From NCBI GenBank assembly GCA_016794485.1, contig JAEUHV010000405.1:1-38390 (forward strand): DNA of 38,390 nt, given 5' to 3'. Numbering within the stretch: position 1 is the first letter of the stretch; each line of letters begins with the position of its first letter. The notes below the pieces were generated by a model. The model worked only from the letters and a program-made list of their open reading frames with translations. It made no database searches and had not been told where the DNA came from. This stretch comes from Planctomycetota bacterium. Lineage in GTDB: Bacteria > Planctomycetota > UBA1135 > UBA2386. Both the position numbers and the translations under genes were made by a program. This document shows, in pieces, positions 2,188 through 10,713 of the stretch.

Positions 2188-3147
2188 ATGCGCGGCCCAG
2201 CCTGCCTTCTCGTTCCCCTCGCCTGCACCAGCGTCGCCTGGGCGCAGTCCCTCGAATCGCTGCGCCAGCAGCTGCGCACCGACCTGCGCCAGGCCCACTT
2301 CGCCCAGACGATGCTCGGCCTCGTGCTGCTCGCCGACGAACTGGAGCTGTCGGGCGCCAGCTACGAGATCGACAACGCGACCAATACCGAACTGCAGACC
2401 GTTTCGATGCCGTTCCATTCACGGCAGTCCGACGGCGACGGCCCGCGCCTCTACTACGAGGGCACGCTCGGCTTCGCCCAGGCCAAGGAACGGGTCGACG
2501 ACATCTACCAGGGCACGTCCCCTGGCAACGAAGCCGCCATCACCACCCGCTGGCGCACCTACGGCGTGCTCGGCGGCCTCGGCGTCGAACTGCCGGTGGC
2601 CGCGGAATGGACTGCGACCCCGATCGTCGACGTCGGGGTGGGCCGCATCGAGAACGACACCGACTACGCCGGTCCAGGCTCCGCCGCGATCCGGGCCCTC
2701 GCCGACGGCATCGCGTTCAATTGGGACGCACTCGCCGCCACTGGCGGCCTCGCCGGGCGCGTCGACTGGCGGCACACGATCGACGACGAACGCCGCCTCG
2801 ATGTCATCGCGCGCTACGACATCCGCTGGACGGACACGTTCGACGCCGACGATTCGGCCCAGGAATTCACGGCGCGGTCGCAGCTGTTCACGCTGCACGG
2901 CGACCTGACCGGGCCGACCGGCATGCTGGTGCAGGAGAAGCCGGTGCAGTGGCAGGCCTCGGCGGCGTTCCGCGCGTTCCCGGAAGGCGACCTGTTCGGC
3001 GTCGACCACTACGTGCAGTTCGGCGGCGCCCTGCTGGTGCCGACCGGCGACCGCATCCCGTACGGCTCGGGGCTCGCGTTCAGCGCCGCGGTGATGCTCG
3101 GCGAGGACTTCTTCGGCTGGACGATCGGCGGCCGGCTGATGTTCTGA
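2188..3147 (+). CDS. Secreted protein, probable outer-membrane beta-barrel
   Basis: This 319-residue protein has a clear Sec signal peptide: a hydrophobic core, then AWA-Q at about residues 18-20. The mature part has no long hydrophobic helix. It is rich in alternating polar and aromatic segments typical of beta strands and ends in GWTIGGRLMF, with a terminal Phe as in the C-terminal strand of many outer-membrane proteins. The neighbourhood of short lipoproteins and another exported protein fits an envelope role. I do not recognise a specific family, and a soluble periplasmic beta protein remains possible. It begins 10 bases after the preceding stop and is probably in the same transcript. Confidence 0.6.
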   Translation: MRGPACLLVPLACTSVAWAQSLESLRQQLRTDLRQAHFAQTMLGLVLLADELELSGASYEIDNATNTELQTVSMPFHSRQSDGDGPRLYYEGTLGFAQAKERVDDIYQGTSPGNEAAITTRWRTYGVLGGLGVELPVAAEWTATPIVDVGVGRIENDTDYAGPGSAAIRALADGIAFNWDALAATGGLAGRVDWRHTIDDERRLDVIARYDIRWTDTFDADDSAQEFTARSQLFTLHGDLTGPTGMLVQEKPVQWQASAAFRAFPEGDLFGVDHYVQFGGALLVPTGDRIPYGSGLAFSAAVMLGEDFFGWTIGGRLMF

Positions 3148-3280
3148 CCGGCGCCGCCACGACCGGGCACGCCCTCCGCCGCAGCGCCCCATCGGCTGGG
3201 TGCCCGACTCGAGGCGCGTATGGGCCCATGTGCCCACGCGAATGCGGCGCGTTCGCGGCGTACTCGCCGGCAGGTGAACC

Positions 3281-4768
3281 ATGCAACCGATCCACCGCCT
3301 GCTTCTCGTCGGAACCCTCTGTGCCGCGCCGATGGTCGCCCAGTGCGCGACCCCGTGGTCGACGCTCGGCGGTGGCCTCGACGACCTGGCGTGGACCCTC
3401 GTGCCGATGCCCGACGGCAGCATCGTCGTAGGCGGTGACTTCCACCTCGCCGGCGGCTCGGCGGCGGGCCACCTTGCCCGTTGGAGCCCGGGTGCCGGCT
3501 GGTCGACGTTCGCCAATGGCGTCGACGACATCGTGCGCGGGCTCGCCGTGACGACCAACGGCGATGTCTACGTCGGTGGTTGGTTCACGCACGCGGGTGG
3601 CGTGGCCACGAGCCGCATCGCGCGATGGAACGGCACGGCGTGGTCGCCATTGGGCTCCGGCCTGGGCAACGGCCTGGCCAACGTGCTGCTCGCGGAAGCC
3701 GACGGCAATCTGCTCGTCGGCGGCATGTTCGCCACCGCGGGTGGCGTCCCGGTCAACCATGTCGCGCGCTGGAACGGCACGTCGTGGTCGGCACTCGGCT
3801 CGGGCATCGTGAACGCCGGAGTGGTGCGCGCGTTGGCGGTCGCCGCGAACGGCGACGTCTATGCCGGTGGCCTGCTGTCCGTCCCGGGCTCGCTCGGCAT
3901 CGCGCGCTTCGACGGCACGACCTGGCAGCCGGTCGGCTCCGGCGTCTCGGGCACCGGCTTCTCGGTCGTGCTCGCACTGCAGGCCCTGCCGAACGGCGAC
4001 GTCGTCGCCGGCGGCTCGTTCACGATGGCTGGCGGCGTTTCCGCCCCCGGCATCGCGCGCTGGAACGGGACCAGCTGGTCGCCCCTCGGCACCGGCATGG
4101 ACGGGCCGGTCAACACGCTGCAGCTCCTGCCCGACGGCGATCTGGTCGCCGGCGGCGTGTTCACCACGGCGGGCGGCGTCAGCGCCCCGTTCCTCGCCCG
4201 GTGGAACGGCACGACGTGGGCGTCGCTGGACGCCGGGCTCGATGCCGCGGTCGAAGCACTGGCGGTGCGGCCGAACGGGGACATCGTCGTCGCCGGCCGA
4301 TTCACGACCGCCGCTTCGGCACCTGCCGCACACATCGTGCTGCGCTCGACGACCTGCCCGGCGAACACGGCGAGCATCGGCACGGGCTGCGTCGGTTCGG
4401 CCGGCATGGTGGCGCTCGCGCCGACGACGGCGGCGTGGCTCGGCGGCACCGCGCGCGCGCAGGCCACGGGACTGCCGCTCGACGCGCTCGCCGTCGGCGC
4501 GTTCGGCTTCGGCCAGGTCACCGTGCCGATGCCCTCCGTGCATCCGCTCGGCGTGCCGGGTTGCGCACTGTTCGTCAGCGACGAGATCCTGCTGCACTTC
4601 CCGACGGGAACCGGCGACGTATCGACGGCGCTGGCGATCCCCGACACCGCCGCGCTCGTCGGGGCGACGTTCCACCACCAGGTCGTGGTCGTCGAACGCG
4701 ATGCCCTCGGCCATCTCGCGGCCCTGACCGCCAGCAACGGCCTGTCGTTCACCATCGGGACCCTTTGA
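3281..4768 (+). CDS. Secreted beta-repeat protein with C-terminal surface domain
   Basis: This 495-residue exported protein has an N-terminal signal peptide ending near AQC. From about residue 25 to 345 it carries six to seven repeats of roughly 48 residues. Each has a core ARWNGTSWSPLGSG, a segment like LPNGDVVAGG and then FTTAGGV. This is the pattern of secreted 'kelch/delta-60-like' beta-propeller proteins common in Planctomycetota and Myxococcota. The last 135 residues start at a Cys-containing linker (CPANTASIGTGC) and form a separate beta-rich domain, similar in plan to the tails of the secreted proteins ending at 27973 and 30830. A role at the cell surface is inferred; ligand or substrate is unknown. 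Its stop overlaps the next start as TGATG. Confidence 0.7.
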   Translation: MQPIHRLLLVGTLCAAPMVAQCATPWSTLGGGLDDLAWTLVPMPDGSIVVGGDFHLAGGSAAGHLARWSPGAGWSTFANGVDDIVRGLAVTTNGDVYVGGWFTHAGGVATSRIARWNGTAWSPLGSGLGNGLANVLLAEADGNLLVGGMFATAGGVPVNHVARWNGTSWSALGSGIVNAGVVRALAVAANGDVYAGGLLSVPGSLGIARFDGTTWQPVGSGVSGTGFSVVLALQALPNGDVVAGGSFTMAGGVSAPGIARWNGTSWSPLGTGMDGPVNTLQLLPDGDLVAGGVFTTAGGVSAPFLARWNGTTWASLDAGLDAAVEALAVRPNGDIVVAGRFTTAASAPAAHIVLRSTTCPANTASIGTGCVGSAGMVALAPTTAAWLGGTARAQATGLPLDALAVGAFGFGQVTVPMPSVHPLGVPGCALFVSDEILLHFPTGTGDVSTALAIPDTAALVGATFHHQVVVVERDALGHLAALTASNGLSFTIGTL

Positions 4769-5154
4769 TGCACCACCCGTTGCTCGACCGCCGTGGTGCG
4801 AGCCACGCGGCGCGAACGGGCGCGCGCGCCACGATCTCGCTGTGGTTGGCCACGGCCGCATGTTCCCCGGGCTGGGCCTGGCGGCACGACCAGGTCGCCA
4901 CGGCTCCGCCTCCGTGCGCGGCACTCGCCACGCCCGGCACCAGGGCCGGGCTCGTGCAGGAACTCGACCAGCCGCACCGTGAGTTCCCAGCCGACCGGGT
5001 CGCCATGTGGCGCATGGTCGCAGTGGACGGCAAGTGCACCGCGGTGCCACGCGGCCCCGGCCCGCTGCCCCGCCGCGACTACACGCTCGTGGTCGAGTTC
5101 GACGCCTCGGACCGTGTGTCCCGCTGGTCCCTCGTGGAGGCCCTGTGGCACTAG
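4768..5154 (+). CDS. Small putative lipoprotein, BamE/SmpA-like (first of three)
   Basis: This gene encodes 128 residues and starts inside the previous stop (TGATG). A hydrophobic segment around residues 22-31 ends at Cys32 (LATAAC), a weak lipobox. The mature part has a helix-like RAGLVQELDQPHREFP, then MWRMVAVDGK and YTLVVEFDASDRVSRWSLV. That order, 'T/R-A-x-V-x-x-x-x-G/D-x-P', a W/Y strand and a 'hxVEFDxxxRV' strand, resembles the BamE/SmpA/OmlA fold of small outer-membrane lipoproteins. The similarity is by pattern only. The last codons overlap the GTG start of the next gene. It is probably an outer-membrane or periplasmic lipoprotein working with its two neighbours; function unknown. Confidence 0.5.
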   Translation: MHHPLLDRRGASHAARTGARATISLWLATAACSPGWAWRHDQVATAPPPCAALATPGTRAGLVQELDQPHREFPADRVAMWRMVAVDGKCTAVPRGPGPLPRRDYTLVVEFDASDRVSRWSLVEALWH

Positions 5155-5459
5155 GCCGCTGCATCACCTGCCTCGCATTCGCTGCCTGCGCGCCTTCCAG
5201 CTTCGAACCGGGCCGCGCCACCCGCGCCGACGTGCTGCTCGAATGGGGCGAGCCGGTCTTGTCGTTCGCGCGCGACACCGAACTCGTGTACGCCGGCGCC
5301 GGCAAGACCGACCACAGCTCCTCGCGGCCACCGGGCCACTTCTATTCCGGCAGCCCCCTCTCGCTGCGGGTCATGCTCGAGCAGCATCGACTCATGCGCC
5401 TGCCCAGGGCCTGCGTCTTCGTGTTCGACGCGAACGGGACGCTCGTGGAGAACCGATGA
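5145..5459 (+). CDS. Small lipoprotein, BamE/SmpA-like (second of three)
   Basis: The gene encodes 104 residues from a GTG that overlaps the upstream gene by 10 bases. No other start gives a signal peptide. The N-terminus is short and hydrophobic and ends in a lipobox, LAFAAC, at Cys15. It is followed by GRATRADVLLEWGEPV, very close to the 'GxTRxDVLxxLGxP' signature of BamE/SmpA-type lipoproteins and of small envelope proteins with the same fold. Then come a Tyr-containing strand (ELVYAGAG) and CVFVFDANGTLVE. It is likely lipid-anchored in the envelope. Its stop overlaps the next start (ATGA), so translation of the trio is probably coupled. Confidence 0.6.
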   Translation: MALGRCITCLAFAACAPSSFEPGRATRADVLLEWGEPVLSFARDTELVYAGAGKTDHSSSRPPGHFYSGSPLSLRVMLEQHRLMRLPRACVFVFDANGTLVENR

Positions 5460-5785
5460 ACCCACTCCACCGGTGGATCGCAATCGTCGTGGTCGCGGTG
5501 GCGGCAGCGGCCTGCTTCGCCCCGCCGATCCACTACACGGGCTACGTGACCGGAGTCGACGTCGTGGGCATGACTCGTCCGAACGTGATCCGCACGCTCG
5601 GCCTGCCCACCGCCGCCAGCGCGTCCGGCGATCTGCTGTACGCGATCCCGAGCGCCTTCTACCACTTCAACGGCGAACAACTCGTCTACCGGATCGTTCG
5701 CTTCGACGCCCGGGGAGTCGTCAGGGAAGCCTCGCCAGTCGTGCAGACGAGCCGTACGGTGGAGTCCCTCTGCACGAAGCTGTGA
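5456..5785 (+). CDS. Small lipoprotein, BamE/SmpA-like (third of three)
   Basis: The gene encodes 109 residues and starts at an ATGA overlap with the preceding gene. The signal peptide is a long Ala/Val helix ending in a lipobox with Cys20 (AAAACFAPP). The mature part has VVGMTRPNVIRTLGLPT, again the 'GMTRxxVxxxLGxP' element of BamE-like folds. It is followed by LLYAIP, QLVYRIVRFDARGVV and a C-terminal polar tail. The three adjacent lipoproteins share length, order of elements and overlapping boundaries, which suggests old tandem duplication with strong divergence. Only 12 bases separate its stop from the stop of the convergent leucyl-tRNA synthetase gene. Confidence 0.6.
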   Translation: MNPLHRWIAIVVVAVAAAACFAPPIHYTGYVTGVDVVGMTRPNVIRTLGLPTAASASGDLLYAIPSAFYHFNGEQLVYRIVRFDARGVVREASPVVQTSRTVESLCTKL

Positions 5786-8574: not shown

Positions 8575-9048
8575 TCAACCCTTCGGCAGGTGTTGGAGAT
8601 CGTCGAGGTCCTTCGGTCGTTCTGCTTCCTGCTTGGCCAGCCGAAGTTCCCGCAACCCGACGAAGTGCACAGGCACGACGCTGCTGCCCACTGTGATGCT
8701 TGCCTCGGCGCGCGTCTGCCAGGCGCGGTCGAACGGCACCGTGCGCAGGCTCGCAATCAGATCGATCCGGTTCGGTGGTCGCCCGAACTGGACGACGAGG
8801 TCGGGATTGGTGAGTTCAGCGGCGTCACCAACCGCCGGCACGGATCCGCCCCAGAACTCGACCAGAGCACTTCACAGACGGTGCGCATTGTCCAACGAAC
8901 AGTCGTACAGGAAATCGATTTCACCGGTGAGCCGCGAGTATCCGTGGTAGATCACGGCAGCGCCGCCGATCACCAGGTACCGCACCTCGTGCTTGGCCAG
9001 CAGCCGAAGGAAGTCCTGCGCGTCCTTTGAAAACAGCCGCTCGTTCAC
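8575..9048 (-). pseudogene. AbiEii-like nucleotidyltransferase gene interrupted by an in-frame TGA
   Basis: The reading frame runs 157 codons from GTG at 9048 and would encode a minimal nucleotidyltransferase. A conserved LVIGGAAVIYHGYSRLTG segment is followed by EIDFLYD, matching the 'GG...D-h-D' active site of the Pol-beta/AbiEii superfamily. The first catalytic Asp is Glu here. Codon 59 is TGA (8872-8874). The same frame continues with SALVEFWGG and good family-like sequence to residue 157 (VHFVGLRELRLAKQEAERPKDLDDL). A Trp codon (TGG) at this place would restore the protein, so one G-to-A change suffices. Its GTG overlaps the stop of the upstream small gene. Most likely a recent nonsense pseudogene; a sequencing error cannot be excluded. 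Confidence 0.75.
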
Positions 9049-9215
9049 TTCGCGCGCTCCGCCTCGCGCACGTCGGGTGCATCCGGGCCGTAGGCACGCT
9101 CGCGCAGGATGCTCGCGATCTCGATGCGTTCGTCGGGTGTCATCGCCCACATTTGCTCGCGATCCCACTTCTCCGCGTCCGCGAAGGAGTGCGCCTTGTT
9201 CGCTTCACGTTCCAT
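9045..9215 (-). CDS. Small acidic protein paired with the nucleotidyltransferase
   Basis: The gene encodes 56 residues, charged and without membrane segments: MEREANKAHSFADAEKWD, then MTPDERIEIASILRERAYG. It sits immediately upstream of the nucleotidyltransferase frame with a GTGA start/stop overlap. Short proteins with the 'D/E..WDREQ...MTPDERI' pattern are familiar as upstream partners of AbiEii-like nucleotidyltransferases, an arrangement often read as toxin-antitoxin-like. That role is inference; the family is uncharacterised as far as I know. The ATG at 9215 is chosen because further upstream codons lose coding character. The partner is interrupted, so the pair may be non-functional. Confidence 0.6.
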   Translation of the reverse strand: MEREANKAHSFADAEKWDREQMWAMTPDERIEIASILRERAYGPDAPDVREAERAK

Positions 9216-9285: not shown

Positions 9286-9588
9286 ATGCCGAACGCGCGC
9301 ACCTGCCACGTCGTGATGGCAACCCCCGCCGACCACGAAGCCGAGATCCGCAAGGCGGTTCGACGGCACGCCAGCGTGCGCTGGACGATCCAGTCGAGCG
9401 CTCGGAAGGGGGACTCGGTCGTCTTCTACCTCAAGGGGCCTCGTTCGTGCTTCCTCGCCGTCGGCATGGTCGAGAGCAAATCGGCCGAACGAGACGACGA
9501 TCGGCGAAGCCGCCCGATCACCGCGCGAACGTCGCCGCGACGTACGCCGCGTAGTCGTCGCCCATCGGCAGTTCGAGGTCGACGGTGA
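9286..9588 (+). pseudogene. Truncated gene: N-terminal fragment of a small (EVE/PUA-like?) protein
   Basis: From ATG 9286 the first 63 codons look like real protein: ARTCHVVMATPADHEAEI, then VRWTIQSSARKGDSVVFYLK and CFLAVGMVESKS. The 'KGDxVVFYLKGP...FLAVGMV' run is what one expects of a small beta-barrel such as an EVE/PUA-like domain. After about position 9475 the frame turns into Arg/Ser/Pro-rich nonsense (RRSRPITARTSPRRTPRS). It then runs antisense into the end of the Thg1 gene, overlapping it by 71 bases. I read this as the 5' remnant of a gene whose rest was deleted. The domain guess is weak; the loss of coding character is clear. Confidence 0.5.
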
Positions 9589-10276
9589 GCCGCCGCCGCT
9601 GCGCCTGCACCGTGCTGCCCGTACGCGGATCGGTCCCTTCGACCGTGACTTGCCGCCACACGGCCCCCACACCACGCTTCTGCCACGCGGGCAAACGGTC
9701 GAAGTTGACGCCGCGCGCGAACAGGAACTCGTGCTTCTGCGCCGTGCTCATGCCGACGAGCCGGTCGTGCGCCGCTTCCGGCGCGGCACCATCTCCGCGC
9801 AGGCTCCAGTAGCAGTGCGCGTTGAGCGCGTTCCGGCTCGCGTCCTCCTGGCGCCAGCGGAAATAGTCGGCCACCAGCGCCGCGGTCGGCAACTGGCTGA
9901 TCCGGCAATCGAACGCGACCGCTCGCTGGAACCGCAGGCTCGCCACGCCGCTCGCTTCGCCGGCGAGGATCGAGAGCAGTTTGCGTTCCTTGCGATGGAA
10001 CGCGTCGGTCGCCGGCGCCAGCAGCAGCGAGATCTCGTCGGACTGCGTGTAGCCGTAGACGCACTCGATGCCGCACTGCATCAGGTGCTGCACGACCGCC
10101 ACCATCGTGTCGCGGAAGCCGACGTCGAACGGCGCCTCGAACGACATCAGCTCCTTGGTCAGGCGCGTGAAGCCGCGGCCGTCGAGACGCGCCACCAGGA
10201 ACAGGCCCGGCAGCGCACAGTGGTCGTGGGCGGTCTCGAAGACGCGCATGCGCGCGTCGAGTTCGTCGAACTTCAT
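9518..10276 (-). CDS. Thg1-like protein (tRNA-His guanylyltransferase / 3'-5' polymerase)
   Basis: This 252-residue protein belongs to the Thg1/TLP family, the only known polymerases that add nucleotides in the 3'-5' direction. They act on tRNA 5' ends, either adding G-1 to tRNA-His or repairing 5'-truncated tRNAs. The metal-binding residues are visible: LDGRGF with Asp32 and YTQSDEISLLL with Asp80-Glu81. The family block WRQEDASRNALNAHCYW lies at about residues 141-157, followed by TAQKHEFLFARGVNFD. Bacterial members are usually repair-type TLPs, since bacterial tRNA-His has an encoded G-1. The start overlaps the stop of the upstream P-loop kinase gene (ATGA), implying a common RNA-related task. 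Confidence 0.93.
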   Translation of the reverse strand: MKFDELDARMRVFETAHDHCALPGLFLVARLDGRGFTRLTKELMSFEAPFDVGFRDTMVAVVQHLMQCGIECVYGYTQSDEISLLLAPATDAFHRKERKLLSILAGEASGVASLRFQRAVAFDCRISQLPTAALVADYFRWRQEDASRNALNAHCYWSLRGDGAAPEAAHDRLVGMSTAQKHEFLFARGVNFDRLPAWQKRGVGAVWRQVTVEGTDPRTGSTVQAQRRRLTVDLELPMGDDYAAYVAATFAR

Positions 10277-10713
10277 TCGCGCCAATCCTCCACGACGAAC
10301 TCGCCGGCGGCCATGCGCACGTAGTGCAACGCGTCGAAGCCCTCGGCCCGCGTCGGCAGTTCGAGCCGTCGCGCCATGTCGCGCACCGCGACGTCGGGAA
10401 CGCACGCCTCGCCGGAACGCGCGGCGTTGCGCGCCAGGCACTCGTCGACCTTCGACGCGAGGTAGTAGCCGACCACGCGGAACCGCGCCGCCCGCGCCGG
10501 CGCCACGAAGCGCGCCCGTTCGGCCACCGACACGTTGGTGTTGTCGACGACGAACGGCATCTGCACGCGCAGGCACGTGGCGAGGAACTCGGCCTCGCGA
10601 TGGCGCGTGCGCAGCATGTCGAGGTTGAGCCGCACGTGCGTGTCCGCGAACCGCCGCGCGCAGAACGTCGACTTGCCGCTCGCCGGGATGCCGATCAGGA
10701 GGACGCACTCCAT
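10273..10713 (-). CDS. P-loop polynucleotide-kinase-like protein (T4 Pnk-type, AAA_33)
   Basis: The gene encodes 146 residues: a minimal P-loop kinase. Walker A is GIPASGKST (residues 8-16, Lys14). A LNLDMLR segment at 30-35 matches the position of the general-base Asp of the T4 polynucleotide kinase group, and VDNTN at 57-61 corresponds to the 'DTN' element of that group. A lid-like Arg cluster (LARNAARS) follows near residue 93. There is no phosphatase domain. The likely reaction is ATP-dependent phosphorylation of a 5'-OH nucleic acid end. That fits the overlapping Thg1-like polymerase, which extends 5' ends of tRNA. The family also includes small-molecule kinases, so the RNA substrate is inferred from context. 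Confidence 0.75.
   Translation of the reverse strand: MECVLLIGIPASGKSTFCARRFADTHVRLNLDMLRTRHREAEFLATCLRVQMPFVVDNTNVSVAERARFVAPARAARFRVVGYYLASKVDECLARNAARSGEACVPDVAVRDMARRLELPTRAEGFDALHYVRMAAGEFVVEDWRE

Follow-up and report, generated by a model that had tools for sequence, protein, structure and literature searches.

An overlapping pair of polynucleotide-kinase-type and Thg1-like genes in a Planctomycetota genome, a probable two-enzyme module of RNA 5'-end repair

The stretch of DNA analyzed here (the window, 38,390 nucleotides, contig JAEUHV010000405.1) belongs to a Planctomycetota MAG of 5.9 Mb that is 83% complete (GCA_016794485.1). It carries on its minus strand, at 9518-10713, exactly where the preliminary description had placed them, two genes encoding a polynucleotide-kinase-type P-loop kinase and a Thg1-like 3'-5' polymerase (TLP). 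Their coordinates and catalytic positions are given in Table 1. The two genes have four bases in common, ATGA, which join the stop of the kinase to the start of Thg1 and bear out the translational coupling that had been proposed. We found the pair at the corresponding place in the genomes of two further members of the genus, with the same upstream genes in both and with LeuRS adjoining in one, and contamination or a recent assembly join is therefore unlikely. Rfam matched no RNA family in the window, PADLOC found no match to a defence system, and gene calls in the window, together with Pfam scans beside the pair, recognized neither a MACRO nor an RNA ligase gene. Between Thg1 and LeuRS, on the minus strand (8578-9168), lie the remains of a gene that looks nucleotidyltransferase-like by eye and is broken by a stop or frameshift; these remains have no Pfam match, and no gene is called at the matching place in a sister genome. 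Opposite the 3' end of Thg1, on the plus strand (9316-9588), there is also a small ORF, PUA/EVE-like by eye and with no Pfam match.

Table 1. Position of the two genes and of their main sequence features in the window
Feature	Coordinates	Strand	Remarks
Polynucleotide-kinase-type P-loop kinase, 146 aa	10273..10713	-	AAA_33; closest to PNKP kinase domains by sequence and by fold
Kinase Walker A GIPASGKS, residues 8-15	10669..10692	-	G13 and K14 invariant in 63 kinases; aligns with T4 Pnk GSGKS
Kinase D32	10618..10620	-	Invariant in 63 kinases; aligned with the T4 Pnk general base
Kinase DNTN motif, residues 57-60	10534..10545	-	Invariant or nearly so; alignment with T4 Pnk
Kinase lid RNAAR, residues 95-99	10417..10431	-	N96 and R99 invariant; R99 aligned with the T4 Pnk lid Arg
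ATGA overlap, kinase stop / Thg1 start	10273..10276	-	4 bases common to both ORFs
Thg1-like 3'-5' polymerase (TLP), 252 aa	9518..10276	-	Thg1 and Thg1C domains; M. acetivorans TLP 5axk is the closest solved structure
Thg1 DGR, residues 32-34 (D32, metal-binding carboxylate)	10175..10183	-	Equivalent to BtTLP D30 / hTHG1 D29 (PMC3701042, alignments)
Thg1 A48, at the site of the ATP-positioning activation lysine	10133..10135	-	BtTLP K43 / ScThg1 K44; PMC3701042 for the function of K43
Thg1 D80-E81, remaining catalytic carboxylates	10034..10039	-	Equivalent to BtTLP D75/E76; 97% and 100% conserved

The kinase matches AAA_33 in Pfam with 62 bits and, against NCBIfam, its best partial match is the kinase domain of PNK-3'Pase (E 1e-14), the kinase domain of bacterial Pnkp being also among the best. 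With a profile of 63 homologues, the matches were mammalian PNKP (E 3e-23), Clostridium Pnkp (2e-13), PSTK (3e-10), and T4 Pnk (1e-5). The AlphaFold model (pLDDT 96.6) again gave mammalian PNKP as the top match in Foldseek (query TM 0.84, E 7e-12), followed by Clostridium Pnkp, the seryl-tRNA kinase PSTK, and T4 Pnk, and, lower in the list, by small-molecule P-loop kinases (gluconate kinase, PFKFB). Five residues are invariant among the 63 homologues (K14, D32, D57, N96, and R99), three of which, i.e., K14, D32, and R99, match catalytic positions of T4 Pnk in an alignment to the T4 record. In T4 numbering, we take the general base aligned to D32 to be D35 and the lid arginine aligned to R99 to be R126. 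The protein is thus like the kinase domains of mammalian PNKP, Clostridium Pnkp, and T4 Pnk in its Walker A, general-base Asp, DxTN motif, lid Arg, and fold. On the contrary, it is stand-alone and minimal, with neither a phosphatase nor a ligase domain, and it differs from the three by a family signature, TRHRE, located after the general base. The minimal T4-Pnk-like P-loop kinase of the preliminary description is in this way confirmed, membership in the polynucleotide 5'-kinase (Pnk) family is well supported by sequence and by the model, and phosphorylation of 5'-OH ends is the predicted activity.

The second protein matches PF04446 (Thg1, 97 bits) and PF14413 (Thg1C, 51 bits), both above the cut-off, and its profile matches the TLPs of M. 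acetivorans (E 4e-49) and B. thuringiensis (BtTLP, E 5e-35). It has in common with these two TLPs the Thg1 domains and the three catalytic carboxylates (D32, D80, and E81), it appears to be of the TLP type and not of the tRNA-His type, and its membership in the Thg1-like family, with a predicted 3'-5' polymerase activity, agrees with what had been claimed. It is unlike them in being linked to a kinase, in having a longer loop before PFD, and in carrying A48 instead of the K43/K44 lysine. In BtTLP, adenylylation drops about tenfold on K43A substitution, with no change in guanylylation (PMC3701042). With Ala48 at this place, ATP-dependent activation may be weak in the window TLP, and the loss of the lysine predicts a GTP-led activation. 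This lysine is conserved in the characterized Thg1/TLP members and is not required for family identity; we found it in 4 of the 88 kinase-linked TLPs versus 13 of the 28 other TLPs. An interpretation of its loss as a direct mark of kinase linkage had to be toned down, since the kinase-linked TLPs of Deinococcus and Embleya keep the lysine, and the loss marks one large clade. Indeed, as most kinase-linked sequences form one clade, it corresponds to one or a few evolutionary events and not to many.

We examined how general the pairing is. In the class of the host, 8 of 154 Planctomycetota genomes encode Thg1, and the kinase is found in exactly those 8, always adjacent to Thg1 (Fisher p 1.5e-13 over the 154 genomes, before correction for shared ancestry); the two genes overlap in all these pairs but one, in which a few bases lie between them. 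In an even sample of the phylum, Thg1 is present in 25 genomes including the host and the kinase adjoins it in 18, one of them with only a partial match, while in the seven others the kinase was not found elsewhere in the genome either. Cyanobacteria carry 12 Thg1 genes in 11 of 244 genomes, with the kinase adjoining 9 of the 12, and a Pseudomonadota sample gave a single matching genome out of 398, namely the seed genome. We also took the 80 genome loci closest to the window Thg1, a set that covers at least seven phyla and is biased towards close relatives, and found the kinase directly upstream of Thg1 in 73. Rare adjacency in other genomes, which the preliminary description had named as an outcome that would speak against its proposal, is thus not what we observed. 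Of the 97 pairs measured, 91 overlap by 1-20 nt (mostly 4, 11, or 14 nt), and the kinase and Thg1 trees are correlated (r 0.58, for a permuted maximum of 0.42). The pairing is not due to chance. Solitary TLPs with no such kinase annotated nearby were nevertheless encountered in phages and plasmids.

Other RNA-repair genes are found around the pair. Within the fetched flanks of the same 80 loci, Hen1/Pnkp, RtcB, or an Rnl-type RNA ligase is present at 15 (Hen1 at 9 and Pnkp at 7), and most loci have no ligase in the flanks examined. Four cyanobacterial loci show the order Hen1-kinase-Thg1-Pnkp with all genes on the same strand, and in one of these a further gene follows Hen1; one Planctomycetota MAG carries Hen1, two RlaP genes, the kinase-Thg1 pair, and Pnkp in a single run. 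On a mobilizable plasmid of Deinococcus, Hen1 and two RlaP genes come after the overlapping pair; two Planctomycetota loci associate the pair with an RNA ligase and an HD protein; and, in the Thiodictyon plasmid pTs417, Thg1 overlaps RlaP, with the BREX defence gene brxD a few kb away. In a Marinicella locus, a gene with a cREC (cyclic-phosphate processing receiver) domain lies at 4839-5477, near the pair.

The kinase-Thg1 pair and the Pnkp/Hen1 RNA repair system thus share operons in Cyanobacteria, in a Planctomycetota MAG, and in an unclassified bacterium, whereas neither Hen1 nor Pnkp is seen in the gene list of the window. As Pnkp already contains a kinase domain, the small kinase is an extra one. 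Because this dedicated kinase persists beside that of Pnkp, its product would seem to be meant for Thg1 and not for ligation. On another contig, the host genome carries together the genes of a Ro60-like protein, RtcB, and RtcA. The idea of a compact repair system with no ligase in sight, put forward in the preliminary description, stands for the window but neither for the genome nor for related loci, and we rejected the generalization that the system works without a ligase, on account of this RtcB and of the ligases beside related loci.

Elsewhere in the host genome, RlaP genes in tandem lie downstream of a carbohydrate-kinase-like gene, an arrangement conserved in two other genomes of the genus. 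In the class, RlaP is present in 8 of 8 genomes with the module versus 21 of 146 others (p 7e-7; 29 of 154 overall), and, counted by genus, in 5 of 5 with the module versus 15 of 82 (p 4e-4), a co-distribution that may partly reflect genome size or lifestyle; in these module genomes, RlaP lies on other contigs than the kinase-Thg1 pair. The association with RtcB is weak (7 of 8 module genomes versus 74 of 146 others; p 0.04 by genome and 0.12 by genus).

The bacterial and archaeal TLPs characterized so far start from a 5'-monophosphate end, which they activate, or from a triphosphate end, and prefer 5'-truncated tRNA, and the natural substrates of the bacterial TLPs remain to be identified (PMC3701042 for the former, PMC6471195 for both). 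Since TLPs need such an end, a kinase restoring the 5'-phosphate is a natural first step. We consider it likely that the two enzymes together form a module of RNA 5'-end repair. The kinase would phosphorylate, in an NTP-dependent way, the 5'-OH of a damaged RNA, presumably a tRNA that has lost part of its 5' side; the TLP, whose translation is coupled to that of the kinase on one mRNA, would then activate the new 5'-phosphate with a purine NTP and, with the intact opposite strand as template, restore the lost nucleotides in the 3'-to-5' direction without the need for a ligase. The order of these reactions, the tRNA substrate, and ribonuclease damage as the trigger are inferred. Ribonuclease toxins, invoked in the preliminary description, could be the source of the 5'-OH ends; no toxin gene is named in the window. 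In many other bacteria, the pair would act alongside sealing systems (Pnkp/Hen1, RtcB, RNA ligase) as well as the nucleotidyltransferase RlaP, and its part in a broader RNA repair is probably the replacement of nucleotides on the 5' side. A more tentative extension, which we find conceivable but doubtful, makes the pair the 5' half of a gap-filling pathway, in which kinase and TLP would replace what a break has removed on its 5' side, RlaP would restore the 3' side, Pnkp/Hen1, RtcB, or Rnl would seal, and the main-clade TLP, deprived of the ATP-positioning lysine, would start with GTP and not with ATP.

Other explanations have to be weighed against this module. The family name, and the annotation of solved Thg1 homologues as tRNA-His guanylyltransferases, evoke the addition of G-1 to tRNA-His, the kinase being incidental. 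However, the tRNA-His gene of the host already encodes G-1 opposite C73, on either side of the acceptor stem GTGGCTG/CAGCCAC, so that the maturation of this tRNA does not need Thg1. We thus rejected G-1 addition as the main role. Moreover, 146 of the 154 class genomes have no Thg1 and the kinase co-occurs perfectly with it, and we give this explanation hardly any credit. It is also very improbable that the kinase acts on a small molecule or an aminoacyl-tRNA instead of an RNA 5' end: gluconate kinase, PFKFB, and PSTK do appear in its fold list, but below the PNKP-type kinases, which come first by sequence (E 3e-23) as well as by fold (E 7e-12), and the kinase is strictly linked to an RNA polymerase of the Thg1-like family and to RNA-repair genes.

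The same two reactions could serve a housekeeping control of tRNA 5' ends, on tRNAs shortened by decay or faulty processing and not by toxin or stress cleavage. In its favour, repair by TLPs in vitro has been shown for 5'-truncated tRNA of several species, and mitochondrial 5' editing for a slime-mould TLP (PMC6471195); we nevertheless hold this reading to be unlikely, as the patchy distribution (8 of 154 genomes in the class, and only the seed among 398 in the Pseudomonadota sample) better suits a conditional or conflict-related function, and the neighbours are stress-type repair genes. Alternatively, the TLP would add no nucleotide and would leave activated 5' ends (5'-App or 5'-Gpp RNA) for a ligase, the kinase supplying the phosphate. 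Ligases adjoin the pair in several lineages, and ligation through 5'-App is named as an alternative by Anantharaman et al. 2010 (PMC2904730). On the other hand, the window TLP keeps R30, K99, and R125, the strongly conserved residues of nucleotidyl transfer in our alignment, while the residue it has lost is the ATP-positioning lysine for adenylylation, and most loci are devoid of a ligase in the flanks examined. The ligase families found near the pair also use their own activation chemistry, and this alternative seems improbable to us.

The association itself is not new. In the main text of Anantharaman, Iyer and Aravind 2010 (Biol Direct 5:43, PMC2904730), the most persistent neighbour of bacterial Thg1 is a kinase of the polynucleotide-kinase family, proposed to supply the 5'-phosphate for Thg1, a prediction made from a few genomes. 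The logic of a kinase feeding Thg1, as given in the preliminary description, thus holds up as a proposal and had already been published. The window has the same two families, the same adjacency, and the same proposed division of labour; it differs from a subset of the neighbourhoods described there, which contain MACRO and RNA ligase genes, a trait of subsets and not a defining one. Hence, the pair is a well-behaved new case of the system predicted in 2010. What we add, and did not find in the main text of that article, are the counts, the translational overlap and its geometry, the RlaP co-distribution, and the Hen1-kinase-Thg1-Pnkp operons; the links with Hen1, Pnkp, and RlaP may have been reported earlier elsewhere. 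The lysine observation is a further addition. A dedicated co-translated kinase offers a concrete two-enzyme reaction for the bacterial TLPs, and the Hen1-kinase-Thg1-Pnkp operons and the co-distribution with RlaP point to a bacterial RNA repair that may put back lost nucleotides besides resealing breaks.

Some Thg1-like genes depart from the common arrangement. Two of the seven kinase-less Thg1-like proteins of the phylum sample have degenerate active sites, with catalytic Asp replaced by Glu, and by Pro or Glu, and they are possibly catalytically dead paralogues. In two viral contigs (98 kb and 66 kb), Thg1 comes before the kinase, i.e., in the reverse of the bacterial gene order. Finally, a contig from a viral collection carries the kinase-Thg1 pair with genes that look HipB/HipA-like by eye directly upstream (2722-4271 of the fetched locus).
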